A DNA stretch of 64,000 bases from Streptomyces sp. NBC_01294. GTDB lineage: Bacteria; Actinomycetota; Actinomycetes; Streptomycetales; Streptomycetaceae. A model generated the notes under the pieces. That model saw only the letters and a program-made list of their open reading frames with translations, was not told where the DNA came from and did no database searches. The stretch covers positions 1,612,001-1,676,000 of the forward strand of contig NZ_CP108423.1 in NCBI RefSeq assembly GCF_035917235.1. Reading direction: 5' to 3'. Every line of letters starts with the position of its first letter. Within the stretch, counting starts at the first letter, position 1. The position numbers and the translations under genes are program-made. Below are positions 8,026 through 47,335 of the stretch, piece by piece.

Positions 8026-8044
8026 AGGAACCGGAAGTTCAAGC

Positions 8045-10906: not shown

Positions 10907-10946
10907 GCCCAAGGGCGGAACCCCACCACGGAGCCCCACCACGGAG

Positions 10947-11024: not shown

Positions 11025-11050
11025 TTCGGGCACCCCCCGGCCCGGCCCGG

Positions 11051-12166: not shown

Positions 12167-12183
12167 GTCCTTACGGTATCCGC

Positions 12184-13827
12184 ATGGCAGCCACCACCCA
12201 CACAGTCAGCAACCAGGCCCCGCCCCTGGTCGGCCACGACGTCTACGGCGGCGATCGGGCCCTCACCGAGGGCATCGAGCGTCACCTCGGATCCGCGGAC
12301 CCCGAACTCCTCGGCGAGGTACGGCAGGAGCTCACCGACCTCGGGCGCGCGGCGGGTTCCGCGCAGGCCCAGGAATGGGGTGTACAGGCGAACGAGAATC
12401 CGCCCAAGCTGCGGACGCACGACCGGTACGGGAACCGCATCGACGAGGTGGATTTCCACCCGGCCTGGCACCAGCTGCTCGGGCACGCGGTCGGCTCGGG
12501 GCTCACCGACGCCTGGGGGCGGCCGGCCGGGCACCTGCGCCGCGCCGCCGGGTTCTTCCTGTGGTCGCAGGCCGAGGCCGGGCACGGGTGCCCGATCTCG
12601 ATGACGCACGCCGCCGTACCGGCGCTGCGGGCCGATCCGGCGCTGGCCGCCGAGTGGGAGCCGCGGCTGACCTCGCACGTGTACGAGCAGGGCCTGCGGC
12701 CGGCCGCGCAGAAGGCCGGTGTGCTGTTCGGCATGGGGATGACGGAGAAGCAGGGCGGCAGCGACGTACGGGCGAACACGACGGCCGCGGTGCCGCTGGA
12801 CGCGTCCGGCGAGTACCTGCTGACCGGGCACAAGTGGTTCTGCTCGGCGCCGATGTGCGACGGCTTCCTGGTGCTGGCGCAGGCTCCCGGCGGGCTGACC
12901 TGCTTCCTGGTGCCGCGGGTGCTGCCGGACGGTACGCGCAACGTCTTCGCGATCCAGCGGCTCAAGGACAAGCTGGGCAACAAGTCGAACGCGTCGAGCG
13001 AGGTGGAGTTCGACGGGACCTGGGCGCGCCGGGTCGGTGAGGAGGGCCGGGGGGTGCGGACCATCATCGAGATGGTCGCGGCGACCCGACTGGACTGCGT
13101 GATCGGCTCGGCCTCGCTGATGCGGCAGGCGCTGACCCAGGCCGTCCACCACGCGGAGCACCGCTCTGCTTTCGGAGCGCCGCTCATCGACCAGCCGCTG
13201 ATGCGCAACGTGCTGGCCGACCTCGCCCTGGAGTCGGAGGCCGCCACCACCCTGACCCTGCGCCTGGCGGCCGCCTACGACGCCGGGACCGAGCAGGAGA
13301 AGGCCTTCCTGCGCCTCGCCGTGCCCGCCGCCAAATACTGGGTGACCAAGCGCTGTACGCCGATGGTCGCGGAGGCCCTGGAATGCCTGGGGGGCAACGG
13401 CTACGTCGAGGAGTCCGGGCTGCCGAGACTGCTGCGCGAATCGCCGCTGAACTCCATCTGGGAGGGCTCGGGCAACGTACAGGCACTGGACGTGCTGCGC
13501 GCCCTCCAGCGCGAACCGCAGGCACTGGGGGCCTTCCTCCAGGAGGTCGGCCAGGCCCGCGGCGCCGACCACCGGCTGGATTCGGCCATCAAGGACCTGC
13601 TGACGGAGCTCGCCGACCTGGAGGGCATCGAGGCGCGGGCCCGCCGCGTCGTGGAGCGCATGGCGCTGGTCCTGCAGGGATCGCTGCTGGTGCGGTGGGC
13701 CCCGCCGGAGGTCGCGGACGCCTTCTGCGCCTCGCGGCTGGGGGGCGACTGGGGCGCGGCCTTCGGCACGCTGCCGCACAGCCTCGATCTGCGTGCGGTG
13801 GTGGAACGGGCGCGGATCGCGGGCTAG
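12184..13827 (+). CDS. AidB-like acyl-CoA dehydrogenase family protein
   Basis: About 547 aa, an FAD flavoprotein of the acyl-CoA dehydrogenase superfamily. The pattern GMGMTEKQGGSDVRANTT, then GHKWFCSAPMCDGFLV and RLKDKLGNKSNASSEVEF, is typical of the AidB/isovaleryl-CoA-like subgroup. LGGNGYVEESGLPRLLRESPL and IWEGSGNVQALDVLRAL complete the C-terminal helical part. AidB proteins are linked to alkylation-damage response in E. coli, but the true substrate in actinobacteria is not known. ATG at 12184; TACGGT at 12172-12177 is a plausible -10 giving a leaderless transcript. Confidence 0.85.
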   Translation: MAATTHTVSNQAPPLVGHDVYGGDRALTEGIERHLGSADPELLGEVRQELTDLGRAAGSAQAQEWGVQANENPPKLRTHDRYGNRIDEVDFHPAWHQLLGHAVGSGLTDAWGRPAGHLRRAAGFFLWSQAEAGHGCPISMTHAAVPALRADPALAAEWEPRLTSHVYEQGLRPAAQKAGVLFGMGMTEKQGGSDVRANTTAAVPLDASGEYLLTGHKWFCSAPMCDGFLVLAQAPGGLTCFLVPRVLPDGTRNVFAIQRLKDKLGNKSNASSEVEFDGTWARRVGEEGRGVRTIIEMVAATRLDCVIGSASLMRQALTQAVHHAEHRSAFGAPLIDQPLMRNVLADLALESEAATTLTLRLAAAYDAGTEQEKAFLRLAVPAAKYWVTKRCTPMVAEALECLGGNGYVEESGLPRLLRESPLNSIWEGSGNVQALDVLRALQREPQALGAFLQEVGQARGADHRLDSAIKDLLTELADLEGIEARARRVVERMALVLQGSLLVRWAPPEVADAFCASRLGGDWGAAFGTLPHSLDLRAVVERARIAG

Positions 13828-14136
13828 GGAGGAAGCCCCCGTCGGGCTCCGCTGCGGTCCCCAAACCGCTCCGGGCCCGGATCCGGGCCCGTCGACCGGT
13901 ACAGAGGTGGCGCCGCGCCGACTCGGCACCACCCCTGATCCGAAGCCCCGAGGAGGAGCTGTCACGCCGCTCGGCGGCGTCCGGACAGTTTCGGTCGGCC
14001 GACCGGGACTTGGCGAGAGTTGCATACCGTTGCAACCTTTGAGTCGGCAGCTGCCCGTCGGGATGCCGGGCAAGCGACACCCGCGGACCGCCCGGGCGGC
14101 TCGCGACGTACGTCCTGTTCGCACGGGGAGGTTCCG
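13828..14136. promoter_or_regulatory. Palindrome-rich leader of the GAF regulator gene
   Basis: No gene. It contains three inverted repeats: a perfect 20-bp palindrome CGGGCCCGGATCCGGGCCCG at 13872-13891 (probably the terminator of the upstream gene), a 14-bp palindrome CGGTCGGCCGACCG at 13992-14005, and GTTGCA-TACCGT-TGCAAC at 14019-14036. The last two lie about 100-140 bp before the GTG start at 14137, in the right position for operators. Confidence 0.45.
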
Positions 14137-15447
14137 GTGGCCGACACCACAGGCAGCGCGGCCGAGGTGGCACGCATCTCGGCCATGGACGCGCGGGAGG
14201 CCGCGCGTATGCTCAAGGGGGTGCGGGCGGCCGCGCTGGCCGGGGACCGGCCGCCGGCCGCGCCGAGACCGGAGATCGCGGAGTCCTGGCGGCGGATGCT
14301 GGCCGGCGGGGTGCACCCGGACCGGGACGCGCGCTCGCGGATGCTGTCGGCCGCCGAGACCGAGGAGCGGCGGCACGGATCGCCGCTGCGGGAGGTCCTG
14401 CCGGTGCTGCGGGAGGGACTGCTGCCCGCGCTCGACGGGGCGCTGCACATCATGGTCGTCGCGGACGCGGACGGGCGGCTGCTGTGGCGGGAGGGCCACA
14501 CCTCCATCCTGCGCAAGGCGGACCGGCTCGGTTTCGGCGTGGGGGCCGACTGGGACGAGGCCGTCGTCGGCACGAACGGGGTCGGCACCGCCCTGGTGAC
14601 CCGGCGGCCGGTCCAGGTGTTCTCGGCGGAGCACTTCGTCTCCAGCCACCACGACTGGACCTGCGCCGGGGCGCCCGTGCGGGACCCGCGGGACGGGCGG
14701 CTGCTGGGCGTGGTCGACGTCAGCGGGCCGCTGGCCACCATGCACCCGGCGACGCTGGCGTGGGTGAGCTCGGTGGCCCGGCTCGCGGAGCAGGAGTTGC
14801 GGATCCGGCACCTGGAGTCGCTGGAGCGGCTGCGGGCGGTGGCGGCCCCGCTGCTGGCCCGGATGCCGGGGCGGGCGCTGGCCGTGGACCCGAACGGCTG
14901 GACGGCGGCGGTGACGGGCCTGGCTCCCACGGAGCGGATCCCGCTGCCGAAGACCTTCGGGCCGGGCCGGGTGTGGGTGCCGCAGCTCGGCGACTGCGTG
15001 GTGGAGCCGCTGCCCGGCGGCTGGCTGCTGCGGATCGCGCAGGACCGTACGGGCACGGCGGCCACCCGGATCGTCCTGGACCTCAGCCGGTCGGGATCCT
15101 GGTCGGCGACCGTGTACGGGTCCTCCGGGAGCTGGTCGCAGGAGCTGAGCCCGCGCCACGCGGAGCTGCTGTTCCTGCTGGCGGAGAGCCCGCGGGGACG
15201 CTCGGCCGCGGAGCTGGCCGCGGATCTGTTCGGGGACCCGACGCGCACGGTGACGGTCCGCGCGGAACTGTCCCGGGTACGCCGGCACCTCGCGGGCGTC
15301 CTGACCCACCGGCCGTACCGCTTCGCGGAGGACGTGGAGGTGGAGCTGATCCGCCCCCAAAACCCGGCCGCGCTGCTCCCGCACTCGACGGCCCCGGCGG
15401 TGGTCCGGGCCCGCCTGGGGTGCGAGGGACCCGGCATGGTTCCCTGA
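14137..15447 (+). CDS. GAF domain-containing transcriptional regulator
   Basis: About 436 aa. A central GAF sensor (about residues 90-230) includes MVVADADGRLLWREGH, WDEAVVGTNGVGTALVTRRPVQV and DGRLLGVVDVSGPL. The C-terminus is a winged-helix-like segment (SPRHAELLFLLAESPRG, ELAADLFGDPTRTVTVRAEL). This is the layout of actinobacterial regulators usually found near aldehyde or acetoin metabolism genes. No such partner is adjacent here, so the regulon is unknown. GTG at 14137, preceded by GGGGAGG with 5-nt spacing, is preferred over an ATG at 14020 that would add 39 non-conserved residues. Confidence 0.78.
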   Translation: MADTTGSAAEVARISAMDAREAARMLKGVRAAALAGDRPPAAPRPEIAESWRRMLAGGVHPDRDARSRMLSAAETEERRHGSPLREVLPVLREGLLPALDGALHIMVVADADGRLLWREGHTSILRKADRLGFGVGADWDEAVVGTNGVGTALVTRRPVQVFSAEHFVSSHHDWTCAGAPVRDPRDGRLLGVVDVSGPLATMHPATLAWVSSVARLAEQELRIRHLESLERLRAVAAPLLARMPGRALAVDPNGWTAAVTGLAPTERIPLPKTFGPGRVWVPQLGDCVVEPLPGGWLLRIAQDRTGTAATRIVLDLSRSGSWSATVYGSSGSWSQELSPRHAELLFLLAESPRGRSAAELAADLFGDPTRTVTVRAELSRVRRHLAGVLTHRPYRFAEDVEVELIRPQNPAALLPHSTAPAVVRARLGCEGPGMVP

Positions 15448-15452
15448 AGTGC

Positions 15453-16016
15453 ATGAGCGCCATCACTCTCACCACCTGGTCCCTGGACATGACCTCCGCT
15501 ACGGACCTGGTCCCGGCCACCCCGCCGGGACCGGAGGTCGCCATCGTGCGGGCGGAGGTCCCCTCCCCCGAGTTCAGCCGCTTCCTGTACGCGTCCGTGG
15601 GCGGTGACATCCACTGGACGGACCGGCTGTCCCTGACCCGCGCGCAGTGGGTGGAGCAGCTGGACCGGCCGGGCGTGGAGACGTGGGTGGCGTACGACCG
15701 CGGCACGCCCGCCGGGTACGTGGAGCTCGACCCCCAGGACGACGGCGTGGTGGAGATCATGTACTTCGGCCTCCTCCCGGACTTCCGCGGCCGCCGCATC
15801 GGCGGGCACCTGCTGTCGGTGGGCGTCGCCCGGGCTTGGGACCTCGCGTCGCGCTGGCCGGACCGGGAGCCGACCCGCCGGGTGTGGGTCCACACCTGCA
15901 GCCAGGACGGCCCGACGGCGATGGACAACTACCTCAAGCGCGGCTTCACGGTCTTCAAGACGGAGACGGAGCAGAAGGAGGAGACCCCGACCCCCGGCCC
16001 TTGGCCCGGCGCGTAG
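15453..16016 (+). CDS. GNAT family N-acetyltransferase
   Basis: 187 aa with the GNAT acetyl-CoA fold: VEIMYFGLLPDFRGRRIGGHLL is motif A with the R/Q-x-x-G-x-G/A loop (RGRRIGGH), and the tail VWVHTCSQDGPTAMDNYLKRGFTVF is the usual C-terminal strand and helix. The acceptor substrate is unknown. The ATG is 5 nt after the stop of the GAF regulator, so the two are likely cotranscribed. Confidence 0.8.
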   Translation: MSAITLTTWSLDMTSATDLVPATPPGPEVAIVRAEVPSPEFSRFLYASVGGDIHWTDRLSLTRAQWVEQLDRPGVETWVAYDRGTPAGYVELDPQDDGVVEIMYFGLLPDFRGRRIGGHLLSVGVARAWDLASRWPDREPTRRVWVHTCSQDGPTAMDNYLKRGFTVFKTETEQKEETPTPGPWPGA

Positions 16017-16081
16017 CCGCTGCGCGGGCCCCGCAGATCAGTCTGGCGGCCCCGGCGCTCGCCCCTTCCGGGCCGTGCCCG

Positions 16082-16533
16082 GGCTGCGGCCCGGTGGCCG
16101 CGCCTCAAGCGCCGGCGGGGCTGGGTGGTGCGTCCTCGGCGGAGGCGTGGGCTTCGGGCCGGGCAGGGTGATGGCTTCGGGTGGGGCGGTGCCCCTCCGG
16201 GGGCTCTCCTCGGCTCGCGCCTGCGGCCGTGGTTCTGCCGTGCGGCCTGGGTTGCGCGCTCGTCCTGCGGGGAGCCCCCGGAGTGTCCCCGCCCCACGGC
16301 CCCGCTTCGTCCGAGACGGGGCGCGGATCCGCCGGGTGGGGGTGTGGGGACGGTGGGGGGTGTCCCCGCAGGACGAGCGCGCAACCACCCCGTACGGCCG
16401 GGACATGCCCGCAGGCGCGAGCCGAGGAGACACCCCCCGGCGGCACCGCACCCCCACCCCCGGTCCCGACCCCGTCCAGGGCACACATCCCCAGCCCCGC
16501 CGGCGCTTGAGGCGCGGCCACCGGGCCGCAGCC
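16082..16533. repeat. Long imperfect inverted repeat (about 450 bp) of Streptomyces interspersed type
   Basis: Three blocks are arranged symmetrically: A, 44 bp (16082-16125 against 16490-16533); B, 22 bp (16205-16226 against 16409-16430); C, 24 bp (16250-16273 against 16363-16386). Each pair is identical or nearly so in reverse complement, and the sequence between blocks has diverged. The whole could fold as one large hairpin with a loop of about 90 bp. The core CCAGCCCCGCCGGCGCTTGA also occurs, slightly changed, at 53139. The reading frames that cross it on both strands are produced by this GC-rich repeat and are not genes. Confidence 0.7.
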
Positions 16534-35901: not shown

Positions 35902-36540
35902 ATGGAGTTTCCCGTCACCGTCCACCGGGCCCGGCTCGGCCCGCAGGAGTTCAAGGTCGTCCGCCCCGCCCGCCCGCCGGAGCACGCGGTGCTCCTGGAC
36001 GACGGCTGGTTCCTGAACGCCTACCTCGACGAGGCGGCCGCACGGCTCATGGCCGGGCTGTGGAGGCTGGCCGCGACCTCGCCGCGCTCACTGATCCATC
36101 TGCCGCTGCGACGCGGTGCCGGCACCGGCGCCGCCGCCGGCACCTCGGAGGCCGGGGCGCGCCCTCTCGACCTCGTCCTGCTGCACCATTCGCTGCAGTT
36201 CGCGCCGTCGCGCTGGAAGGAGCTGCGGGGCAGGCTCGGCCCGGGCCTGCGCCGGAGCGTCACCGTGCCCGCCTCGGATCCGGAGACCGGCCACGCGGCC
36301 CTGCACCACGCGGAGAACCGCGACCTGTTCCACCAGCACCTCCACGCCGAGACGCTGTTCGTGACGGGCAGCGCGAAGGTGTTCCGGGAGACCGCCGGGG
36401 CCTTCCGCGAGGTCGCCGACCACGGCCCGCGACACGCCCGCGACGGTTCGCCGGGCGGGCATTACTGCGCACGCCTGGGCTCCGGCGACGACGGCGCGCG
36501 CGACATCCACATCGAGTACAGCGACGCGCGGGAGCCGTAG
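35902..36540 (+). CDS. Hypothetical protein
   Basis: About 212 aa, beginning MEFPVTVHRARLGPQEFKVV. It is rich in His near the middle (LLHHSLQFAPSRWKELR, HAALHHAENRDLFHQHLHAE). The end DIHIEYSDAREP is acidic. No family was recognised with certainty. It follows the APH-type gene by 20 nt and may be cotranscribed. ATG at 35902 was chosen; GTG at 35866, overlapping the previous stop, would add 12 residues. Tandem copies of a 26-bp repeat begin right after its stop. Confidence 0.55.
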   Translation: MEFPVTVHRARLGPQEFKVVRPARPPEHAVLLDDGWFLNAYLDEAAARLMAGLWRLAATSPRSLIHLPLRRGAGTGAAAGTSEAGARPLDLVLLHHSLQFAPSRWKELRGRLGPGLRRSVTVPASDPETGHAALHHAENRDLFHQHLHAETLFVTGSAKVFRETAGAFREVADHGPRHARDGSPGGHYCARLGSGDDGARDIHIEYSDAREP

Positions 36541-36612
36541 CCCTCGCCGCTCAGGCCGGGGCATAGCCCTCGCCGCTCAGGCCGGGGCGTAGCCCTCCCC
36601 GCTCAGGCCGGG
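36541..36612. repeat. Tandem 26-bp repeats at the end of the split exonuclease gene
   Basis: Units of 26 bp (CCCTCGCCGCTCAGGCCGGG plus GCATAG or GCGTAG) begin at 36541 and 36567, with a partial third unit at 36593. The third unit contains the stop codon region of the exonuclease C-terminal fragment (TCAGGCCGGG). The array looks like duplication of the last bases of that gene. Confidence 0.75.
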
Positions 36613-37020
36613 ACCAGGCCCCGCAGCGGCCAAGCCGTGTCGATCACCGCGTCCGGGGTGCCCTGCCGGCGCAGGTACGACTGGAAGTCCCGCGCCCAGC
36701 GCGCGTGCCAGGTGCCCTGCCGGTCGTGCAGGTCGGCCGGGGTCAGCGCCGCCACATCCGGATGGCGCTCGGCTATCGCACGGGCCACCTGGACCGCCGC
36801 CAGCGCGTCCGCCCCGGCGTCGTGCGCGTCGTCGAGGGTGACCCCGTACACCCCGCAGACCGCCTCCAGGGTCCGCTTGCCCCGCCGGTAGCGGTCCACG
36901 GCCCGGTCGATGGTCAGCGGGTCCACCACCGGCCCGGTCTGCGCCCCGCCCAGCCGGTCGGCGAGCGACGGCAGCCCGTGCCGGGCCAGTTCGGCGGTCA
37001 GCAGGGTCAGGTCGAGGGCC
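36603..37020 (-). pseudogene. C-terminal fragment of the DnaQ-like exonuclease split by the element
   Basis: It encodes, from DLTLLTAELARHGLPSLADR to the end AWPLRGLVPA, the second part of a DEDDh 3'-5' exonuclease, including the Exo III segment LDDAHDAGADALAAVQ (catalytic His and last Asp). The Exo I and first part of Exo II are missing. They lie 8.26 kb away at 45281-45606 on the same strand. A GTG inside the terminal repeat (37028) could start translation, but the product would lack half the active site. The fragment ends in the 26-bp tandem repeat. Confidence 0.85.
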
Positions 37021-37035
37021 TTATCCACGCACGCC
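37015..37035. repeat. Left end of element: 6-bp core plus 15-bp terminal inverted repeat
   Basis: AGGGCC (37015-37020) is followed by TTATCCACGCACGCC (37021-37035). The right end carries the same 15 bp in reverse complement and the core AAGGCC. Just inside lies the palindrome CGTGT-CTC-ACACG (37036-37048), a possible accessory binding site for the recombinases. Confidence 0.8.
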
Positions 37036-37084
37036 CGTGTCTCACACGTCCGCGATTCGTTGACGGTCCAGGGGGTGCGATCAG

Positions 37085-38563
37085 ATGGAGATCTTCTTCA
37101 CGGACCCGGATGCGCTGGAAGCGGCCGGGGTAAGCGATGCTCAAAGGGCACTTGAACGACATGGCTTGCACGCTGGCGCGCCGTTCATCCTCAGCCACGA
37201 CGGCAGCTACGACGTCCAGCTCAACCGCTTCCTGTGGTCCCTGCCGACCCTCGGGGTGAGGTCGGTTCACTCCTGGCGCGCGTACGCTCTCGATCTGCTG
37301 ACCTGGGGGCGGTTCCTCCAGGAACATCGCGGCAAGACCGTGTGGCACGCGGACCGTGACGACGTCACGGTGTTCCACCGAGCCCGGCGTGTCTCTCCCG
37401 ATCCGACGCAGGTCGTCTCGGCTTCAACCTGGAACCGGGCGGTCGCGGCCTTGGACAAGTTCTACACATGGGCGGTGGACGAGGCTCTGATCGAACGGAC
37501 ACCATTCAAGTACTACGAGAGTTCACGCCACTCGCACTTCGGACAGCAGGTACGCGTCCGCAACAACCGCGCCGTCGAGAAGGCCGCCAAGCGCAGCAAC
37601 GTGAAGTTCCTCTCCGTAGACCGCTATGCGGCCTTTCGTGACATCGGCCTACGGGGTCAGCTCCGGACGGGCACCACCGATTCGACCTTCCGAGGCCGTA
37701 ATGCGGAGCGAAATGCCCTCATGGCGGAGCTGTTGGTCACCACTGGCTTACGCATCGAGGAGGCCGCTTCGCTCTGCTGGCCGGAACTCCCGGACCTGGA
37801 CAGCCAGAGAGACGTGAAGAGCGTGCCGTTCGACCTGGCGCCGCCGACCGCCAAACGGGACAAGGGGCGCAGGATCCTCTTGCCCAACCGAGTCCTTCGC
37901 GCCCTGGCCGATTACGTGGAGATCGAGCGTTCCCTGATGCTCGACCGCTGGCGCGCCCGCGACTGTCCGCTGCCGACCGGCGCGGTACTGGGGAGCCAGG
38001 CCGACCGGCGAGGTGTACGGATTCCCATGAAGGACGGACGACTCCGGAAACTCCCCTGGTCACGCGTGCCACCGGCAGTCCGGGCTCGGCTGTACCTCGT
38101 TGACGAGCAGGGCCGTCCTCTAGGCCCTGCGTGCCTCTGGCTGGGCCAGGAAGCTCGTCCCGTGACCCTGTCGGCCTGGGAGTCGGTCTTCGTGCGGGCC
38201 TCGGAGAGATGCCGTGTGTACGGGATCGACGTCGCCGCCACACCCCACGTCCTCAGGCATACCTTCGCCGTGCATCTGTTGTCTGCACTGATTCAGGAGC
38301 AGATCGGCTCGGTGGAGAAGGACGAGATGAGTGACGGCGTGTACCGACGCATCATCGGCGATCCACTCGATCACCTGCGCCGTCTGTTGGGGCACTCCTC
38401 GATCACGACGACGTACATCTACCTCGACTGCACCGACCAAGCCCAGGCCCTGATCGACGGCGCGGTGGATGCCTGGACGTCCGAGGTCGTGGACACGGCA
38501 CATCGCGTGTCGCAGGAGATCGACAACTCCTCTGCTCAGGCGCAGGGAGCAGCCCCGTGGTAG
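37085..38563 (+). CDS. Tyrosine recombinase 1 of the trio (canonical, TnpA-like)
   Basis: 492 aa. It has the full catalytic set of tyrosine recombinases: Arg I in TTGLRIEEAASL (about 223), HxxR in ATPHVLRHTFAVHLL (about 388-391), His in LLGHSSITTTYIYLD (about 437) and the nucleophilic Tyr at about 446. An N-terminal SAM-like core-binding domain (SWRAYALDLLTWGRFLQEH) precedes it. AGGGGG lies 9 nt before the ATG. It is the first gene of the element's operon, and its stop overlaps the second recombinase by 7 bp. It probably carries out strand exchange together with the third recombinase. Confidence 0.88.
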   Translation: MEIFFTDPDALEAAGVSDAQRALERHGLHAGAPFILSHDGSYDVQLNRFLWSLPTLGVRSVHSWRAYALDLLTWGRFLQEHRGKTVWHADRDDVTVFHRARRVSPDPTQVVSASTWNRAVAALDKFYTWAVDEALIERTPFKYYESSRHSHFGQQVRVRNNRAVEKAAKRSNVKFLSVDRYAAFRDIGLRGQLRTGTTDSTFRGRNAERNALMAELLVTTGLRIEEAASLCWPELPDLDSQRDVKSVPFDLAPPTAKRDKGRRILLPNRVLRALADYVEIERSLMLDRWRARDCPLPTGAVLGSQADRRGVRIPMKDGRLRKLPWSRVPPAVRARLYLVDEQGRPLGPACLWLGQEARPVTLSAWESVFVRASERCRVYGIDVAATPHVLRHTFAVHLLSALIQEQIGSVEKDEMSDGVYRRIIGDPLDHLRRLLGHSSITTTYIYLDCTDQAQALIDGAVDAWTSEVVDTAHRVSQEIDNSSAQAQGAAPW

Positions 38564-40371
38564 GCCGGGGGCGGCGCAGCGCCCGGCTGAACGCACCCGC
38601 ACTCCAGCCGGTCGACCCGACTCCAGCCATGCTCGGAGTTTTGAGGATCGAGGTCACCTTCCCGGACAACCGGCCGGCCGTCGTGGACTGGACGCGGGAG
38701 CCTCAGCAGCGGCTGCTGGGGGCACTGGGAGCCGAGTTGGCGGCCTCGTGTGACGTGGGGCAAGGAACTGGTTCACCGCATACGCTCCGCAATCGCGCAC
38801 GCTCCTGCCTGCTCTGGGCGCGGTGGCTCGACTCCATGGAAGCGATGGACATGCGCGTAAGCGACCTCCTTCCGCGCCACCTCGACGGATTCGAGAGCCA
38901 CCTCAGGGAGAGCCATCCAGAGTTCTCCCGGACTCCCTACGCGCGAATCGCTGACGTCGTGTGGGTCCTGCGCCGACTCGGCGAGAAGGAGCACGGACTG
39001 TCCCCGTCGATGATCCGCAGGCTCTCCTATACATCCACTGGTCCGGTCGGCTCGTACTACCCTCGCGACGCTTACTCGCCTCACATCGTCAACCAGTTAC
39101 GCGCTTCCGCGCGAGCCGACGTCGACGACGCAGTCCGACGGCTGACGCTACAAGGTCCGGCCCTACTGGCGCAGGGGCGGGATCCGCGAAGAGCAGGCTG
39201 GGACTCCGATGCCAACGTGCTCTGGGAAATCCGTCACCGCGATGGGCAGTTCACCAGGCAAATGTTGGCACAGGCAGTCGGTGATCAGCACGCGAACGCG
39301 CACACTCCCGGTCGTCTTGCGCCTCTGCTGTACCCGACCAGCCGGGACGTGTTCGCCCTACTCCTGTTGTTCTGCCTGGAGAGCGGCATGGAGCTGGAGG
39401 CAGCCAGAGAGCTGACTTCCGACTGCCTGAAGAATCCGAATCGCGGTTACGTACAGATCGAGTACCTCAAGCGGCGGCGGCACGGGCAGGAGTGGAACGT
39501 GATCCGGGTGCGGGACGGCTCTCCCAACTCACCTGGCGGGCTGATTCGGTTGGCACTACGCCTTACGTCGTCTGTCAGAGAAGCCACCGGCGCCCCCGCG
39601 CTGTGGCAGTTTCGGACAAAGGACGGCCCTCTGTCCGCAGGACTCAGCCCCGGCACGGCGAGCAAGATGGCCCGGAACTTCGTCTCAGTACATCAGCTGA
39701 CCGACGAAGGGCGCCCTGTCGACCTCCGCCTGTCCCGGCTCCGTAAGACGTACAAGGCAGCCGTCTACAAGACGACCGGCGGGAAGATGTCGGCGTTCGT
39801 TCAGGGCCATTCCCCAGACATCGCCGCCGCGCACTACGCAGACATCCCCTCGCTACGCCGCCTCCACGAGCAAGCCGTGGCAGACGGCCTGCAGGACGCG
39901 CTGGCGGACGCACAGGCGCCCACCATCCTTACGCCCGAGGAAGAAGAGGCATTCAGGCAGCCGCCGTCGAATGGAACTGAGTCGCCGGGCCCTGCCGACC
40001 CGGAGCTGCCGCAATTTCTGACCGGCGAGTCCGATCTGTGGTTGTCGTCCTGCCGCAGCTTCTTCGACTCGCCCTTCGGCACGAAAGGGAAGCCCTGCCC
40101 GGTGTCCTTCTTCGCCTGTCTCGGATGCAGCAATGCAGTGATCACCCGAGGGAAGCTCCCAGCCATCCTGTCGTTTCTCAACCACATCGAATCCGAACGC
40201 ACAAAGACGCCGGCAGAGGAGTGGGCGGCGCGTTTCGGCAGAGCCCGCCAGCAGATCTTGGAACTGATCATCCCAAGGTTCAGTGAGGACGACGTGCTGC
40301 ACGCCAGGGCAGTCGCCGAGTCTGAAGCATCGCTGATCTTCCTGCCCCAGAGCATGCTGGGAGGCCACTGA
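38557..40371 (+). CDS. Tyrosine recombinase 2 of the trio, catalytically divergent
   Basis: 604 aa. The fold is recognisable from LLLFCLESGMELEAARELTSD, VDLRLSRLRKTYKAAVYKTT and GHSPDIAAAHYADIPSL. The usual Arg I position reads GMELEA rather than GMRxxE, and box II reads LSRLRKT instead of HxLRHT. The final His and Tyr positions seem kept. A C-terminal cysteine cluster (about 515-535) spans SCRSFFDS, GKPCPVSF and FACLGCSN and could bind zinc. GTG at 38557 with AGGGAG 8 nt upstream. It may be a structural or directionality partner rather than an active strand exchanger. Its stop overlaps the next start as TGATG. Confidence 0.75.
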   Translation: MVGRGRRSARLNAPALQPVDPTPAMLGVLRIEVTFPDNRPAVVDWTREPQQRLLGALGAELAASCDVGQGTGSPHTLRNRARSCLLWARWLDSMEAMDMRVSDLLPRHLDGFESHLRESHPEFSRTPYARIADVVWVLRRLGEKEHGLSPSMIRRLSYTSTGPVGSYYPRDAYSPHIVNQLRASARADVDDAVRRLTLQGPALLAQGRDPRRAGWDSDANVLWEIRHRDGQFTRQMLAQAVGDQHANAHTPGRLAPLLYPTSRDVFALLLLFCLESGMELEAARELTSDCLKNPNRGYVQIEYLKRRRHGQEWNVIRVRDGSPNSPGGLIRLALRLTSSVREATGAPALWQFRTKDGPLSAGLSPGTASKMARNFVSVHQLTDEGRPVDLRLSRLRKTYKAAVYKTTGGKMSAFVQGHSPDIAAAHYADIPSLRRLHEQAVADGLQDALADAQAPTILTPEEEEAFRQPPSNGTESPGPADPELPQFLTGESDLWLSSCRSFFDSPFGTKGKPCPVSFFACLGCSNAVITRGKLPAILSFLNHIESERTKTPAEEWAARFGRARQQILELIIPRFSEDDVLHARAVAESEASLIFLPQSMLGGH

Positions 40372-42404
40372 TGCCGACGCAGCCGCTGCCAGTCGGTCAT
40401 GGCGACATCCGTCCTCTCGGCACGACGCCCGTTCTCTCCGGACGTCCTCTCACCGTCGATCCTGGTGCCGTGCCCAGATTCGCTGACCGTGTCTGGAACC
40501 TTGCGGTTGCTGGGCACGCAGGAAACCGCTACGCCAGCGAGTTCCTCATCGACTTCGACTCGCTCAGCAATACCGCACGGCGCGAGGCCGCTCGCGAGTT
40601 TCTATTCTGGAGGCTCAACACACGTCCGGTTCGTGGCCCGCTGCCCTCCATCTCGACAGTAGCGGCGGAGTGGTGGAACCTGCGGTGCTTCCTCCGGTTT
40701 CTCGACACTGAGCACGATGGGATTCGCATGCGCACGGTGACGCAGTCAGTCCTGGACTCCTACCTGGCCAGCTGCCGCAGCGAGGGCCTGATGAAGAGCA
40801 GCTTGCGCCAACGGCTCCAGGTGATTCCGCGTCTTCACCTCGCTGCAGAAGCCATGCCGACGGACGCGCTGGAGGTGAATCCCTGGAACGGGCGCCCCCT
40901 CTCCCGCGTCATCGGAAGTCCGGTGGTGAGCACACACGAGAACCAGACTCCCCGTATCCCACCCCAGGTCGTCGCCCCGCTGGTCCAGGCTGCCCTGTTC
41001 TACGTCCATACCGCGGCGCCCGACATCATCAACGCACGAGCCGAACTGACGGCGCTGGAAGCCTCCGTCGGGGAGATCCACGGTCTGTCACTCACCCGGC
41101 TGAACCACTATCTCGGCAGCCTCGCGGCCGGCGGACGTGGGGTTCCAGTGCTGGACGGTACCGGTCGCCAACCCCACCTGGCCGGTACGCCTGCGTACAC
41201 GTACGTCATGCGGAAGTCGGGAGCTGGCCAGGCGATCGCCAGCGGCTCGTATAACGACCGCATCGACCGTGCTCTGCAACAGCTGGGGCCTGAGCCCGGC
41301 GGCATGGACACTCCCATCACGCTCCACCCGCAGAGCGGGCAGCCTTGGCGTGAGAGATTCAGCCCTCCCGCGATCCCCCGCGAGGAACGTCTCCTGCGAG
41401 CCGCCTGCTACATCCTCATCGCCTATCTGTCCGGCATGCGCGACTCCGAAGTCAAGGAACTCCGAGACGGCTGCCACTTCACCGAGCGAAGCGCTGACGG
41501 CGTCGTCGTACGGCACAAGGTGCGCTCACAGCTCGTCAAGGGTGGCCGGGGAACCTCGGAGAGCTGGATTGTCATCGAGCCGGTCGCCTACGCCATCAAT
41601 GTTCTGGAACGCCTGCCCCACCGTGACCTGCTGTTCTGCCGGCCGGTAACTGGCCGTCCACACTCGACGATCTCTGCCAACCGCATGAATGACAACCTCA
41701 ACGAGTTCCTGACGCACTGCGCGGACATCGGCTATCCGGTACCCGATGTCAATGGGGAACCGTGGAATCTTACGACCCGCCAATTCCGCAGGACCGTGGC
41801 CTGGCACATCGCCCACCGCCCGTTCGGCACCGTGGCCGGGATGATTCAGTACAAGCATCTCTCCGTGGCCATGTTCGAGGGGTACGCGGGTACTTCCCCC
41901 TCGGGCTTCCGCGCGGAGGTAGCTGCTGAGGAGGCGCTGGCCCGCCTGGCCGATGTCGTGGAGCGCTACGAGGATTTCAAGGCGGGCGTACGCTCGACCT
42001 CCCCAGGCGGACCACGGACCGACAACGAGTTCGCGCGTGTCCAGAAGGAGCTCCAGGACTTCCCGGGCAGGTTGGTCGATGAGCGCCGCCTGCACGCCAT
42101 GCTCAAGGCTTCCGCACGCACCCTGCATATCGGCACGGTCAACGACTGCTACTACCAGCCCGAGACCGCCCTGTGCCGCACACCGAGCGGCGAGGACCGG
42201 CCTCTGCTCAACAGCTGCCGTCCCGATCGCTGCGGGAACTCGACCATCACGACCCGGCATCGCATCGGTTGGGAAGCAGCACGCGGAGACACCGAGCGCG
42301 CGCTGGCCTTCGTCGGCCTCTCCGATCTCCAGCGAACGGCTCTGCGAGGGCACCTCAACGACGTCACCAAAGTGATCGAGGGTATCGACTGTGCCAACGA
42401 CTGA
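40371..42404 (+). CDS. Tyrosine recombinase 3 of the trio (TnpB-like)
   Basis: 677 aa. Arg I in AYLSGMRDSEVKEL (about 355), box II as NLTTRQFRRTVAWHIAHRPFG (about 465-485) and the end KHLSVAMFEGYAGTSP with the presumptive nucleophilic Tyr (about 508). The TTRQFRRT-HRPFG pattern is typical of the large TnpB-type recombinase of Tn554-like elements. A cysteine-rich C-terminus (NDCYYQPETALCRTP, NSCRPDRCGNS) probably binds metal. ATG overlaps the previous stop (TGATG), and the stop overlaps the TnpC-like gene by 14 bp. Confidence 0.82.
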   Translation: MPTQPLPVGHGDIRPLGTTPVLSGRPLTVDPGAVPRFADRVWNLAVAGHAGNRYASEFLIDFDSLSNTARREAAREFLFWRLNTRPVRGPLPSISTVAAEWWNLRCFLRFLDTEHDGIRMRTVTQSVLDSYLASCRSEGLMKSSLRQRLQVIPRLHLAAEAMPTDALEVNPWNGRPLSRVIGSPVVSTHENQTPRIPPQVVAPLVQAALFYVHTAAPDIINARAELTALEASVGEIHGLSLTRLNHYLGSLAAGGRGVPVLDGTGRQPHLAGTPAYTYVMRKSGAGQAIASGSYNDRIDRALQQLGPEPGGMDTPITLHPQSGQPWRERFSPPAIPREERLLRAACYILIAYLSGMRDSEVKELRDGCHFTERSADGVVVRHKVRSQLVKGGRGTSESWIVIEPVAYAINVLERLPHRDLLFCRPVTGRPHSTISANRMNDNLNEFLTHCADIGYPVPDVNGEPWNLTTRQFRRTVAWHIAHRPFGTVAGMIQYKHLSVAMFEGYAGTSPSGFRAEVAAEEALARLADVVERYEDFKAGVRSTSPGGPRTDNEFARVQKELQDFPGRLVDERRLHAMLKASARTLHIGTVNDCYYQPETALCRTPSGEDRPLLNSCRPDRCGNSTITTRHRIGWEAARGDTERALAFVGLSDLQRTALRGHLNDVTKVIEGIDCAND

Positions 42405-42798
42405 CGCAACCGAATCAGCCCTCCGAGCGGCTTCCGAACGCCTACTCCGAGGAGAGCCCACCCGTAGCGACGGTTCCCTGACCGTCGCCTCTCTAGCCGT
42501 CGAGGCCGGTGTCAGCAGAGCGAGCGCATACCGCCACCCTCGTGTTCTGGCAGAGTTCCAAAACCTCGTAGCCGATCGAGAGGATGCAGCCGCACCCTCA
42601 ACCTCCCTCCGGCAGGAGGTCCAGACCCTGAAGGCAGCCGAGCGCCGGCTCCGCCAAGAGCATGCACGCGAGGTGCGGGAGCTACGCTCCTCGATCAACG
42701 TCCTCGCACAGCAGGTTCAGCTCCTCGCCCTGGAGAATCAACGTCTCTCCATGGCGGCCGACCGAAGCGATCGCGTCACTCGCATCGATCGTCGCTGA
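42391..42798 (+). CDS. Small HTH/coiled-coil accessory protein (TnpC-like, DUF6262 type)
   Basis: 135 aa. A short helix-turn-helix (LTVASLAVEAGVSRASAYRH) is followed by a long coiled coil (about 65-120) that includes EVQTLKAAERRLRQEHAREV and LLALENQRLS. This size, order and position after the recombinases match the small TnpC/DUF6262 accessory proteins of Tn554-like elements, which influence frequency and orientation of insertion. GTG start lies inside the end of recombinase 3, so translation is coupled. Confidence 0.72.
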   Translation: MPTTDATESALRAASERLLRGEPTRSDGSLTVASLAVEAGVSRASAYRHPRVLAEFQNLVADREDAAAPSTSLRQEVQTLKAAERRLRQEHAREVRELRSSINVLAQQVQLLALENQRLSMAADRSDRVTRIDRR

Positions 42799-42969
42799 TC
42801 TACTCGGCCCGATGCGGCATGATATCTCGCTTGCAGAAGGTGATCTCGATGGCCATCCTCGCAGGTGGCGAGGCAGATCGGGCGGTGCTGTGCTGGACCA
42901 TCCCGCCCTACGCTCCCGATCACGAGATCGACGGCTGAGCGAGCATCGTCATCAACCACGGGGAGCAAC

Positions 42970-44496
42970 GTGCCGCCTTTCGTCTACCGGATCACCAAGT
43001 ACGACCCTGCCGACCGCGACGAGCACGGCAGCTACATCGGCGCTGAGGACTCGACCAGCGACCACGGACCAGTCGAGGCTGCATATCTGCAAGCGATTGC
43101 CACCTTCGCCGAGGACACCGGCATCGACCGCCTGGCCATTCGTGAGCCGGGGATCTCCGGCCTTACCCACTTCGGCCTGGAGCCGGCGATCGACGGCCAC
43201 GGCCTTGCCGGGCTCTTCCCACCCGACCTCAGCGGGTTCCACGACGGTGCGGAGGTGCCCGTCTCCCTCGGCCTGGAGCTGGTCAGGGGCATGCTCCGCG
43301 ACAGCGGTGCCTGGTGCCGTCTGGCGGTGGAGGACAAGTTCGACGTGCAGGTCGGTTGGGACCAGTACGTCTACGTCAGCAGCGACAAGCCCTGCGAGCG
43401 CGCCTTTGCCCGCACCCGGGCTCTCGGTCTCTTCCCGGAGCGGCTGGAGGCCTCGCCCTACGACGCGGACTTCGACGAGCCCGGCGTGCAGCGGCCCGCC
43501 GACGAGGACTACTGGGCCCGTCTTCGCTGGTCCATCGCCATGCGGCACGCAGCGATATTGGAGGAGGGGTACCTCCACAATGCCTCCCGCTGGCATCGCC
43601 TCACCGATGGGAACCTCGATGCGGTACGCGCCCGACTCACCCCTCGTGCCCAGTTGACCGTCTGGCCGGACCTGTCCACCGATGTCGACGCGGTCCTTGC
43701 CTCGCTTCCCGACGAAGGTCCGGCGGAGTTCGTATGGGAGGACGAGAACGGGGCTATCTCCAGCACGGTGGCCGACGAGTCCGAGTACAGGGAACTGGCC
43801 GCCCAGGTGGCAGGCGCCCGTGCCGCTACGGCCCTGTCCTTGACCCTCGACGAACGCCACCCGCTGTTCACCGCGGTCCTGCCCGACAGCGACGGCGTCC
43901 TGCGCGCGCGGTGGAGGACCGAGCCGACTCCGAGCGACCGGAACTGGGCCTTCCTTAAGACTCTCCACCGTGGGCAGATCTGCACTGGCACGGTCACGGA
44001 GATCGCCAGCTTCGGTGTGACCTTTGTGGACATCGGCGGCTTTACCGCGATGATCAACATTCCGGAGCTGTCCTGGCGCCGTTTCAATCACCCATCCGAC
44101 GTCGTCAGTATCGGCCAGAGGATCTCGGCCGAGATCCTCGACGTCGACCTGGTGAGGGAGCGCGTGCCGCTGTCCCTGAAGGCATTGCAAGAGGACCCGA
44201 TGCCGCAGTTCATACAGCAGGTCGGCCAGACCACGAACGGCGTCGTGACCAAACTCGTACCGTTCGGCGCCTTCGTCCGTATCGAAGACAGAGAGGACGG
44301 CCTTGAAGGCTTCGTTCACCTCACCGAGCTGGCCGAAGGACACGTGGACCGGCCCGAGGATGTTGTTCAGGTCGGAGACAGCCTCACCGTGAAGATTCTG
44401 GACGTCGACCTTCCACGACGTCGGATCACCCTCTCCTACCTGCAGGCTCTCCCGCCCGGAGAGCTGACCAGCGCGGTCATCGCCTCCGGGGAATGA
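42970..44496 (+). CDS. S1 RNA-binding domain protein (element cargo)
   Basis: About 508 aa. The C-terminal third has two S1 OB-fold repeats: GQICTGTVTEIASFGVTFVDI through the segment ISAEILDVDLVRERVPLSLK, and GQTTNGVVTKLVPFGAFVRI with TVKILDVDLPRRRITLSYLQ. The first 330 residues are an uncharacterised domain found attached to S1 in some Streptomyces proteins. GTG at 42970 with GGGAG 5 nt upstream was chosen because conserved sequence begins directly after it. A 171-bp gap before it probably contains its own promoter. The end overlaps the convergent exonuclease gene by 20 bp. How an S1 protein would serve the element is unknown. Confidence 0.75.
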   Translation: MPPFVYRITKYDPADRDEHGSYIGAEDSTSDHGPVEAAYLQAIATFAEDTGIDRLAIREPGISGLTHFGLEPAIDGHGLAGLFPPDLSGFHDGAEVPVSLGLELVRGMLRDSGAWCRLAVEDKFDVQVGWDQYVYVSSDKPCERAFARTRALGLFPERLEASPYDADFDEPGVQRPADEDYWARLRWSIAMRHAAILEEGYLHNASRWHRLTDGNLDAVRARLTPRAQLTVWPDLSTDVDAVLASLPDEGPAEFVWEDENGAISSTVADESEYRELAAQVAGARAATALSLTLDERHPLFTAVLPDSDGVLRARWRTEPTPSDRNWAFLKTLHRGQICTGTVTEIASFGVTFVDIGGFTAMINIPELSWRRFNHPSDVVSIGQRISAEILDVDLVRERVPLSLKALQEDPMPQFIQQVGQTTNGVVTKLVPFGAFVRIEDREDGLEGFVHLTELAEGHVDRPEDVVQVGDSLTVKILDVDLPRRRITLSYLQALPPGELTSAVIASGE

Positions 44497-45190
44497 GCGG
44501 CCAGGCCGGCTCGACGACTGTCGTCGGATCCGCAGTACGCCGCAGATAGGCCTGCAACGAGACCGACTGTTCAGCCGCCGCGCGTACCTGAAGGTCATGC
44601 AGATCCGCCAATGGCATCAGGCCGACGGGCTGGTGCTTCTCACCCATGCGTCGCACCACGCGGCCGGCAGCCACGGCGTCCGCCCTCGCATCGTGCGCGT
44701 CATCGAGCGACACCCCGTAGTGAGCACACAACGCGTGGAGGGCCCGCTTGCCCTTCCGGTACTTGTCGACGTGCTTGTCGATCACCAGCGGATCGATGAC
44801 GGGCGAAAGCACACTGCCCAGCCGCTCACTGATCGACTCGACCTCGTGCCGCCGACACTCACGGTCCAGCAGCGACAGGTCGTAGCGTGCGTTCATCACC
44901 ACCAGAGGCATCCCCAGACGCAGCCCCTCGGCGACGGCCTGCGCGATCTCCTCGATGGCGGAAGCAGCCGGTACCCCGTGCTCGCGAGCATGCGCTGTCG
45001 AGATGCCATGGATCGCCGACGCCTGTTCTGGTATCGCCACCCCTGGATTGAGCAGCCAGGTCCGTTCTTCCGAGACGGATCCGTCCGGATCCAGCCGCAC
45101 GACCGCGGCTGTGACGATGCGGTCGGTCTCAACGTCGGTGCCCGTGGTCTCCAGGTCGAAGGCCACCAATGGCCCACTGATCCAGCTCAT
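44477..45190 (-). CDS. Replacement DnaQ-like DEDDh exonuclease carried by the element
   Basis: 237 aa with a complete active site: Exo I LVAFDLETTGTD (Asp and Glu), Exo II VVMNARYDLSLLD (Asp), Exo III LDDAHDARADAVAAG (His and Asp). It is homologous along its whole length to the split host gene: N-terminal half to 45281-45606 (AASAIHGIST, RIVTAAVV shared), C-terminal half to 36603-37020 (RRGKR/RKGKRAL, AWPL shared). Its ATG overlaps the stop of the interrupted host frame as TGATG, so it should be translated by reinitiation from the host gene's own ribosome entry and promoter. It probably substitutes for the destroyed enzyme. Confidence 0.85.
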   Translation of the reverse strand: MSWISGPLVAFDLETTGTDVETDRIVTAAVVRLDPDGSVSEERTWLLNPGVAIPEQASAIHGISTAHAREHGVPAASAIEEIAQAVAEGLRLGMPLVVMNARYDLSLLDRECRRHEVESISERLGSVLSPVIDPLVIDKHVDKYRKGKRALHALCAHYGVSLDDAHDARADAVAAGRVVRRMGEKHQPVGLMPLADLHDLQVRAAAEQSVSLQAYLRRTADPTTVVEPAWPLIPRRR

Positions 45191-45606
45191 CACGCGGCCA
45201 CCATTCCGGCATGGGCTGCCGGCCGGCGTCGCGCTTCGCCGTCATGAGACACCTGAGACGTGACTGGCGTGCGTGGATAAAAGGCCGCGTTGTACGCGAC
45301 GACCACCGCACCCGCCCGCCAGTGTCCGACCAGCGCCCGCGCGACCTCGTCCGCGACCTCCCGCACCGGGCGGCCTTCGGCGACCGCCCGCTCCGTGCTG
45401 ATCCCGTGGATCGCCGAGGCGCCCTCCGGGATCGGTATCCCCGGGTCCGCGAGCCAGCCGCGCCGCTCGCGCACCACCCCGCCCCGCACCTCGACCACGG
45501 CCGCCGTCACGATCCGCGACTCGCCCGGCTCCGTGCCGGTCGTCTCCAGGTCGAACCCGATCAGCACACCGCCGTGCCAGTCCCCCATGCCGCGCCAGTC
45601 CTCCAC
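45190..45606 (-). pseudogene. N-terminal fragment of the split DnaQ-like exonuclease, running into the element
   Basis: GTG at 45606 (GGAGG about 8 nt upstream) opens VEDWRGMGDWHGGVLIGFDLE, with Exo I FDLETTGTEPGE, the block ASAIHGISTERA and the start of Exo II VVVAYNAAF. The host sequence ends at 45281. The frame continues through the 15-bp terminal repeat for 29 foreign codons (YPRTPVTSQVSHD...) and stops with TGA at 45192-45190, overlapping the start of the replacement gene. The product lacks Exo III and should be inactive. In-frame host continuation lies at 36603-37020. Confidence 0.85.
45266..45286. repeat. Right end of element: 15-bp terminal inverted repeat plus 6-bp core
   Basis: GGCGTGCGTGGATAA (45266-45280) is the exact reverse complement of the left 15-bp repeat; AAGGCC (45281-45286) follows. 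Inside the end, the motif GTGTCTCA (on the minus strand) recurs as at the left end, at a different spacing. Confidence 0.8.
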
Positions 45607-45722: not shown

Positions 45723-45777
45723 CCGCACCGACCTCATGAGCCGCACCGACCTCACGGACCGCACCGACCTCACGACA
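45723..45777. repeat. Three tandem 18-bp repeats at the 3' end of the HEPN gene
   Basis: CCGCACCGACCTCATGAG, CCGCACCGACCTCACGGA and CCGCACCGACCTCACGAC follow each other with period 18. The last unit enters the stop codon of the HEPN gene. This is the third case in the window of a short tandem array at a gene's 3' end. Confidence 0.7.
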
Positions 45778-47047
45778 CCGGGCGGGAGTCCTCCCACATC
45801 GACTCGAATTCCTCCCGGTACGTCGTGAACAGCCCGTGGTCCGCGTCCTTCGGCACTCCGCGCCCGCCGCCCCGCAGGACCAGGACGGGGGACTCCATGC
45901 CCCGCGCCCGCCGCAGGTACGACTGGACCACGGCGATGCCCGAGTTCTGCCCCTCCACCAGGTAGGCGGTGAAGCGCGGCGTCTCGTCGAAGACGTGGAT
46001 CTCGAAGCGCGACGGATCCCGCAGCCCGGCCCGGACCCGGCGCACGTGCAGGATGTTCATCTCCACCGAGCGGCTCAGCTCGCCCTTGCGCAGACCCAGT
46101 TCCCGCTCGCGCCGCTTGACCGCGCTGCTCGCCGGGTTCAGGAACAGCAGCCGCACGCGGCAGCCGGCCTCCGTGAGCCGGACGAGTCTTCGGCCCGAGA
46201 AGTTCTGGACCAGCAGGTTGAGCCCTATCCCGATGGCGTCGAGCCGCCGCGCGCCGCCGAAGAGGTCCTCGGCCGGGAGCTGGCGCTGCAGCCGCACCCG
46301 GTCCGGGTGGACGGAGACGACGTCCGCGTACCGGTCGCCCACCAGGTCCTCGACGGCGTCGATCGGCAGCCGGTCGGCCGAGGGGCTGCCCGCGCCCCCG
46401 CCCAGTACTTCCAGGAGCCGCGCCGAGGCCCGCTCCGCCTGCTCCAGCACGGGCCGCGACAGCGCCCGGTTGCGGGAGACGACGTTGCGGGTGACCTCCA
46501 GCTCGTCCAGGGCCAGCTCGATCTCGCGCCGGTCGTCGAAGTACGGCTCGAAGCACGGCCAGTGCTGGACCATCAGCTCCCGCAGCTGGGGCAGGGTCAG
46601 GAAGCTCAGCACGTTGTCGTCGGCCGAGTCGAGCAGGTAGCCCTTGCGCCGGCTGACCTCGCGCACGGCCACGGCCCGCTGCACCCACTCCTGTCCGGCG
46701 GGCCCGGCGGCCGCGACCACCCAGTCGTCCCCGCCGTGCACCGGCTCGTAGATCGGCCGCAGCACCGCCCCCACCACCGAGCGCAGCCGCTGTTCGATCA
46801 GGTTCAGCCAGATGTACGCACGGCCCGCGCGCTGGGCCCGGGTACGGACCTCGCTCCAGGCCTCCGTGCTCCAGTCCAGCTCGGCGCCGGCCCGTACGCT
46901 CCCGGCCGCCGCCGGTCCGCCCGCCAGGGAGACCGCACCGGCCGCGACCCCCGCAGGCGCCCCGCCGGGGACACCCCCTGGGGCGTCCGCCGGGCCACCC
47001 TCGTGACTGCTGTCACCAGGGGGCAGCTCCAGACCTCCCGAGCTCAC
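45770..47047 (-). CDS. SAV_2148-like HEPN domain protein
   Basis: About 425 aa. A Gly/Pro/Ala-rich N-terminus (about 60 residues) precedes a helical region with WSTEAWSEVRTRAQRAGRAYI and NLIEQRLRSVVGAVLRPIYE, then VTRNVVSRNRALSRPVLEQAERASARLLEVL, which contains the R-x4-H-like HEPN position (here RNRAL). The C-terminal half resembles a phospholipase-D-like or sensor domain (RRLVRLTEAGCRVRLLFLNPAS). It matches the conserved Streptomyces family named after SAV_2148. HEPN proteins are often RNases, but this family is untested. GTG at 47047 was chosen with AAGGCGG upstream. Confidence 0.75.
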   Translation of the reverse strand: MSSGGLELPPGDSSHEGGPADAPGGVPGGAPAGVAAGAVSLAGGPAAAGSVRAGAELDWSTEAWSEVRTRAQRAGRAYIWLNLIEQRLRSVVGAVLRPIYEPVHGGDDWVVAAAGPAGQEWVQRAVAVREVSRRKGYLLDSADDNVLSFLTLPQLRELMVQHWPCFEPYFDDRREIELALDELEVTRNVVSRNRALSRPVLEQAERASARLLEVLGGGAGSPSADRLPIDAVEDLVGDRYADVVSVHPDRVRLQRQLPAEDLFGGARRLDAIGIGLNLLVQNFSGRRLVRLTEAGCRVRLLFLNPASSAVKRRERELGLRKGELSRSVEMNILHVRRVRAGLRDPSRFEIHVFDETPRFTAYLVEGQNSGIAVVQSYLRRARGMESPVLVLRGGGRGVPKDADHGLFTTYREEFESMWEDSRPVS

Positions 47048-47184
47048 CCGTGCACCGCCTTCTGCGTCTGGACGCCCGTCTCCAGTGATCACGGAAGGGT
47101 ACTCCGCGCGCGCGGCCCGATGCAGCCCGATGGCCCTTACACCGGCTGCCCGTTGACCCATTATCGGATGCGCACACAGTCCGC

Positions 47185-47211
47185 TGACCCGCATATCAGC
47201 TCTGCGGGTCA
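47185..47211. promoter_or_regulatory. Perfect 9-bp inverted repeat between HEPN gene and glgX
   Basis: TGACCCGCA (47185-47193), a 9-bp spacer and TGCGGGTCA (47203-47211) lie in the 288-bp divergent region. Symmetry and position suggest a dimeric regulator site acting on glgX, on the HEPN gene, or on both. No other structure was seen in this gap. Confidence 0.5.
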
Positions 47212-47335
47212 CCCGGTAGGACCCCTCCCAAGTCCGCGCATGGCGCCCCTCTTTCGGGGAAGATCGGGTGCAGTGACGTGGTCCACGCCGGATCAGCCGG
47301 GACACCCTCCGACAATGCGGGAAGAGTCGTTATCT

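Follow-up and report, generated by a model that had tools for sequence, protein, structure and literature searches.

A 64,000-nt stretch of the 8.5-Mb genome of Streptomyces sp. NBC_01294 (the window) contains an integrated element of 8,260 bp, which splits the gene of a DnaQ-like exonuclease within the codons of the Exo II motif and carries a complete, divergent copy of the same gene. According to the full proposal, of which we are largely confident, this copy likely replaces the enzyme that is lost through the insertion. In related species, remnants lie beside the same gene, which suggests that the replacement has outlived the element and has become the only copy. It also appears fairly likely, if with less assurance, that the element represents a widespread class of gene-replacing elements that cut in active-site codons, bring a divergent and recoded surrogate, take over by a stop-start overlap in two of three lineages, and decay until the surrogate is the only allele of the host. 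One exonuclease would thus have been swapped repeatedly across Streptomyces, the surrogate being present in about one sixth of the sampled species.

The element and the split exonuclease gene

The element occupies positions 37021..45280 of the window, as defined by its inverted repeats, its cores and the split gene. The left inverted repeat TTATCCACGCACGCCCGT (37021..37038, plus strand) and the right inverted repeat (45263..45280, minus strand), both of repeat family I20, match at 17 of 18 positions and are perfect over 15 bp. They are bordered by the 6-bp cores AGGGCC on the left (37015..37020) and AAGGCC on the right (45281..45286), which differ at one base; in the three other copies with both ends read (G108, G235, and G150; G and L numbers denote genomes and loci), the left core equals the right core. 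The host exonuclease, termed type A, is encoded on the minus strand. Its N-terminal fragment (45281..45588) covers positions 3-102 and its C-terminal fragment (36603..37020) positions 102-228 of PRK07942, a DnaQ-like family of 232 positions, and the gene is interrupted after the Phe of NAAF|DLTLL, immediately ahead of its first Asp, the Exo II Asp of type A. The intact carried exonuclease at the right end of the element, termed type B (44477..45190, minus strand), matches RNase_T (PF00929) and PRK07942 over its full length and is about 50% identical to the type A host gene. Both features had been proposed in a preliminary description of this DNA, namely an 8260-bp element in the Exo II motif with perfect 15-bp repeats and 6-bp cores, and an intact full-length homologue of the host gene at its right end, and both are confirmed by the sequence. 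A search of the window genome revealed two further paralogues (47% and 36% identical) in addition to the fragments and the copy.

Relatives show what the site looks like when it is empty. The joined host protein found matches in 374 of the 392 genomes of the genus. An uninterrupted gene with AAGGCC at the junction had been predicted for relatives, and the codons around the motif are indeed uninterrupted in 29 of the 30 intact loci returned, as read by a motif that L067 does not match. The five nearest relatives (95-97% identical) carry GGCCTT on the coding strand, which is AAGGCC and equals the right core of the window. Because of this, the left core AGGGCC would be either foreign or the result of a later mutation, between which a single base cannot discriminate.

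The reading frame at the junction and the recoded core

Read in the coding direction, the frame of the host fragment stays open across the inverted repeat and a linker (45190..45280, minus strand) as far as a TGA stop codon, which overlaps the ATG start codon of the carried exonuclease (TGATG). The same open frame was read at all ten junctions, with linkers of 21, 28, 29, 29, 30, 30, 40, 40, 40, and 40 codons and the overlap TGATG in nine cases and ATGA in L089. The junctions of L086 and L089 were counted by hand from the sequence and the other eight were computed; L035 reads alike and was left out of the count, its host gene being unrecognised. The frame appears to be kept, because five different linker lengths are all in frame, with a chance of 1/3 for each. 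Expression of the carried type B gene is therefore likely coupled to that of the host gene. In the nine loci that bear remnants of type A (see below), the motif TGATG, counted irrespective of frame, remains in three and is lost in six. The two types also differ at the core itself, which ends in TT in 33 of 33 type A genes and in TA in 66 of 67 type B genes.

The proposed mechanism would start with recombinases that use a 6-bp core within codons which hosts can hardly alter, so that the site would nearly always be available. Insertion at the core would disrupt the target gene. Through sequence at the right end of the element, the host frame would be prolonged up to a stop codon overlapping the copy's start codon, and the promoter of the host gene and the ribosomes translating it would thereby serve the replacement. 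The carried gene, being different at the core, should escape being a target itself. Finally, the recombinase genes would decay or be deleted, leaving the carried gene as the only copy and type A replaced in place by type B.

Type B genes without the element and their remnants of type A

A profile of six carried exonucleases had matches in 73 of the 392 genus genomes (E up to 1e-95). Six of these are element loci, and the other 67 have type B at this locus without recombinase genes. All 67 type B genes lie near the window's flank genes R1 (45770-47305) and L2 (35015-35881), which served as locus markers; 64 have both, and three have one side only in the fetched stretch. Just upstream of type B, nine of the 67 loci (L092, L094, L096, L134, L135, L136, L145, L147, and L148) bear a truncated type A remnant of 28 to 113 aligned residues, and all nine remnants score higher with type A than with type B queries. 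The remnant in L148 terminates in the inverted repeat of the element at the exact junction, L147 has a C-terminal remnant as well, and L096 retains both a C-terminal remnant and the S1 gene of the element's cargo. Conversely, no type B remnants were found beside the type A genes of 33 loci, where type A queries gave one weak match (E 0.006). The type B loci without recombinase genes probably record an insertion, followed by decay and by replacement of A by B.

Alternatively, A and B may be old alleles that species exchanged by ordinary homologous recombination of their flanks, in which case the element would have picked up B and would play a minor role in its spread. We consider this possible, if clearly the less probable history, and the trees bear on it in both directions. 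In the exonuclease tree (109 rows, one paralogue row being left out), type A forms a single clade with a support of 100, and nine element copies lie among the type B genes, requiring six changes, of which at least four are forced by strong branches. When family members are added (111 rows), the element copies again need six changes, of which at least three are forced. The tree built from three flank genes has 107 rows and leaves out L155, which has one flank gene only; on it, A and B require 14 changes. A deep group of 18 type B rows agrees between both trees, as old alleles would, and the 58 type B loci without a remnant fit such alleles as well. Another genus likewise has both types at this locus, with type B in three genomes and type A in a fourth; in other genera of the family, a match of 57-65% in 35 of 51 genomes was read as type A, and all six that were checked lie at the locus. 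An exchange of flanks would not readily account for truncated type A directly upstream of B in nine loci, one remnant ending at the inverted repeat and one locus keeping the S1 cargo, nor for the lack of the converse remnants. Furthermore, in the exonuclease tree as well as in the flank tree, S. fumigatiscleroticus, which has the intact element, adjoins L145, L147, and L148, all of which bear remnants.

Elements of the same lineage

Twelve loci of this lineage were reached by searching with the third recombinase and, within the family, with the exonuclease. In addition to the window, these are G108 (L031), S. sp. APSN-46.1 (L086), S. canus (L087 = L032), S. fumigatiscleroticus (L088), S. colonosanans (L089), S. 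niphimycinicus (L090 = L033), S. populi (L091 = L036), G055 (L035), G364 (L037), G441 from another genus (L242), and a linear plasmid of S. antimycoticus (L278). Strains with intact elements include S. canus 299MFChir4.1 and S. fumigatiscleroticus JCM 3101. Because the entire layout recurs in other genomes, the arrangement goes beyond chance. Both type A parts flank the element in nine loci (the window, L031, L086-L091, and L242, the last representing a second genus). The N-terminal part seen in L278 comes from an exonuclease that is more distant (38%), and no fragment of a host gene was recognised in L035. The preliminary description had asked whether the family as a whole carries the exonuclease, and it is present at the same place in 11 of the 12 loci; in L037, a recombinase fragment of 78 residues and no exonuclease was found.

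A cargo protein with two S1 domains (PF00575), encoded in the window at 42970..44496 on the plus strand, is missing in several sister elements: it was not found in L087, L088, L090, L035, and L242, all of which have the exonuclease. That the exonuclease is retained while the S1 cargo comes and goes supports its proposed role as a replacement. The S1 cargo resembles ribosomal protein S1 and is common to L031, L086, L089, L091, and L096. The decayed element of L278 (9-13.8 kb of the linear plasmid) comprises an MFS transporter and a regulator besides the exonuclease copy; the fragment and the copy appear in RefSeq as a pair of overlapping 3'-5' exonucleases.

As judged from dN/dS values of 0.10-0.24 in 16 pairs, the carried exonucleases are under purifying selection. 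Asp13, Glu15, Asp105, His167, and Asp172 are retained in six of six aligned carried exonucleases, and we take these residues to be the DEDDh set. A comparison of the profile of carried exonucleases with solved structures gave no match at 1e-10.

Related elements with other target genes

Elements with recombinases about 35-50% identical to those of the window split a gene for an HNH nuclease (PF07510) at a conserved Asn-Asp in G266 (L034), G272 (L112), G257 (L113), and G198 (L114). Their cores are ACGACC or ACGACA where both ends were seen. An intact HNH gene lies just inside the element in all four HNH-split loci found, and in all four the host frame runs to a TAG, with the following ATG or GTG codon starting the frame of the copy. 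L113 has only the N-terminal part of the HNH gene; joining the flanks restored the frame in L034, L112, and L114.

A third target was met on plasmids. The third recombinase matched 290 plasmid records, of which 17 were fetched, 15 of them alphaproteobacterial. In ten of the 15 alphaproteobacterial plasmid loci an ArdC-like zincin gene is split, and in nine a junction of the type EE(L/I/V)VA|EL was read directly. Eight of the ten zincin-split loci contain a full zincin copy. The target site lies within a conserved motif in all three lineages, and the copy can differ at the core in each, by eye for the zincin copy of L263 and by one base for the HNH copy of L034, as in the exonuclease copies. 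The HNH and zincin elements would embody the same design with another target. In L266, L268, and L271, a reverse-transcriptase gene resembling those of group II introns lies between two pieces of the N-terminal part of the split zincin gene. Self-comparison of the plasmid loci L262, L265, L266, and L267 revealed no pair of fragment and copy. L272, L273, and L276 may hold other targets, because L268-L278 were searched with zincin and exonuclease proteins only. When element ends were sought by script in 34 loci, most of the pairs obtained were due to chance, and ends were kept only if they agreed with split genes or, in L127, if they matched at the repeat as well as at the core.

Since HNH copies occur in HNH-split and zincin copies in zincin-split loci, the carried gene follows the target. 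This makes it very improbable that the carried exonuclease serves to help the element move, for example in end trimming, with its likeness to the target being secondary. Its presence in 11 of 12 lineage loci while other cargo varies would suit a helper; elements hitting HNH or zincin genes bring HNH or zincin genes, and the HNH-type locus L034 gave no match to the exonuclease. Even less credible is a chance cargo, acquired once and irrelevant to element survival, given that the reading frame is kept and that three targets in two phyla each come with their own copy and a fourth case has been published (bcp, PMC9345347), even if GInts bear varied cargo (PMC5385486) and some relatives lack a target copy. 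Both explanations were set aside, as the carried gene tracks its target.

Several observations weigh against replacement by a mobile element as set out above, or limit its reach. The split type A gene of the window has dN/dS values of 0.10-0.19 against five intact genes and is not yet degenerate, so that its loss of function is deduced from the cut alone. According to the trees, part of type B is old and vertically inherited, since the deep type B group matches the flank tree. The short remnants of L092, L134, and L135 (28-33 residues) favour A over B only by a narrow margin. The contrast of nine remnants in 67 loci against none in 33 (Fisher p 0.028) ignores relatedness, and the 33 type A loci are mostly the top of the match list and not a random sample. 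Among the zincin-split loci, L269 has a truncated copy and L266 no copy, and the position of the zincin copy, behind the recombinase genes, means that frame coupling is not common to this lineage. L127 contains a relative of 14.3 kb (1949-16239; ends TTCTCCACAC, core CCGTCC on both sides) that splits an EF-G-like gene of which it carries no copy. Self-comparison over ranges of up to 20 kb found no pair of fragment and copy in 30 more distant Streptomyces loci, L127 included (13 loci L038-L050 and 17 loci L115-L131, most without known ends); several have other repeated open reading frames (ORFs) that were judged unrelated or not traced (e.g. L039, L119, and L131). Carriage of a target copy is thus a habit of some lineages and not of all. 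Finally, enzyme function, expression, mobility, the direction of change in each lineage, and the share of replacements that occurred via the element are all deduced from sequence.

Recombinase genes and comparison with known elements

The left end of the element is followed, on the plus strand, by three genes of the recombinase family and a fourth, small gene. The preliminary description had counted three tyrosine recombinases, of which two stand. The GinA/IntA-like first protein (37085..38563) matches PF00589 and PF02899 and retains Arg, Lys, His-x-x-Arg, His, and Tyr. The third (40371..42404) has no Pfam match; its catalytic residues are present by eye in the alignment, with Arg357 retained in seven of seven aligned sequences (boxes set by eye). 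The second (38557..40371), likewise without a Pfam match, is a degenerate relative with Glu at position 279 in place of the expected box I Arg in seven of seven aligned sequences (box set by eye) and is probably not catalytic. The small protein (42391..42798), in the place of GinD/TnpC/Srap, has a weak match to DUF6262 below the cut-off and is conserved together with the trio. This element is probably mobile.

An element that supplies a paralogue of its own target had been thought undescribed, which is contradicted by the SE-6283-like strand-biased circularizing integrative elements (SEs) that sit in Vibrio bcp and carry bcp (PMC9345347; this and the following comparisons refer to the consulted parts of the sources). 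The published bcp case represents the same idea with another target, and the present elements are a variant of a little-noticed kind. Both kinds reside within a protein-coding gene and bring along a homologue of that gene, and both have the order recombinase, degenerate protein, recombinase, and small protein, a 6-bp core, and imperfect inverted repeats. The SE order, with the non-catalytic protein second, recurs here, with Glu in seven of seven second proteins and catalytic residues in the first and third (boxes set by eye), as do imperfect inverted repeats within the 13-19 bp of SEs (18 bp with one mismatch) and 6-bp cores. In contrast, the SE target is a peroxiredoxin and the hosts are Gammaproteobacteria, to which SEs are described as confined (PMC10214605), whereas the present elements occur in Streptomycetaceae and on alphaproteobacterial plasmids. 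SEs are further characterised by a strand-biased circularization that leaves no empty site, and their middle and small proteins are Tfp and Srap. Frame coupling, remnants, and a lasting replacement of the host gene are not mentioned for SEs in the consulted part of PMC9345347. A literature search, with most subscription journals outside its scope, turned up no description of versions with an exonuclease, HNH, or zincin gene, of a kept frame, or of permanent replacement.

GInts are genomic islands with ginABCD (PMC5385486). Like the present elements, they have fixed sites and a 6-nt staggered exchange, and one of their ends holds three genes of the recombinase family and a fourth, small one, with the cargo following. 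GInts excise as a circle, for which all four genes are required. GInts reside mostly at gene ends or between genes, and a target copy is not mentioned in the consulted part of that source. Their third protein lacks the first Arg, whereas here the second protein is degenerate and the third keeps Arg357 in seven of seven sequences. GInts have imperfect direct repeats of 10-17 nt; in the junctions read here, the direct repeat is the 6-bp core only. Recombinase-in-trio (RIT) elements likewise have three adjacent overlapping recombinase genes, but all three families have a possible catalytic motif, and a small fourth gene is not mentioned in the consulted part of PMC3414803. Here, the second protein is without the box I Arg and a small fourth gene is present. 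Tn554 is not known to carry a copy of its target, and integrases that restore gene ends are known from tRNA genes, prfC, icd, and similar genes. Tn554 resembles the present elements in its TnpC-like small protein, its fixed site in a gene, and its 6-bp footprint and differs in having two recombinases plus TnpC, radC as its site, and no counterpart of the middle protein, as opposed to the trio and the exonuclease site here (PMC10214605, PMC3414803). The end-restoring integrases, also treated in a review on integrative and mobilizable elements (PMC5704250), similarly spare the target gene harm, but they restore the end of the same gene, whereas here a whole divergent gene substitutes for one cut in its middle.

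If the proposal is true, the slowest-changing codons of a gene would offer a dependable landing site without cost to the element from the damage done. A foreign gene version would have a route to its own locus without homologous recombination, and the origin of in-place xenologous gene displacements would become directly testable. A remark on one Vibrio element would thereby turn out to describe a design that has several targets and reaches at least two further bacterial groups, and which ordinary annotation reveals only as neighbouring 'exonuclease' or 'metallopeptidase' genes.

Further observations

The inverted repeats of the window start with TTATCCACG (37021-37029 and 45272-45280), which is close to a DnaA box (TTATCCACA). 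Subterminal TGTCTCA repeats near both ends are common to exonuclease-type and HNH-type elements (37038-37044 and 45225-45258 in the window; 9420-9445 and 17390-17450 in L034); a protein of the element may bind to them. Among the distant loci, L119 has two full-length homologous ORFs (1537-2889 and 11726-13075; 63% identical) flanking a distant recombinase trio, and L048 (G324) contains two different recombinase trios in tandem, at 3.5-8.9 kb and 11.7-17.5 kb. Directly downstream of the host exonuclease fragment in the window, a 26-bp unit is present in three tandem copies (36536-36621).

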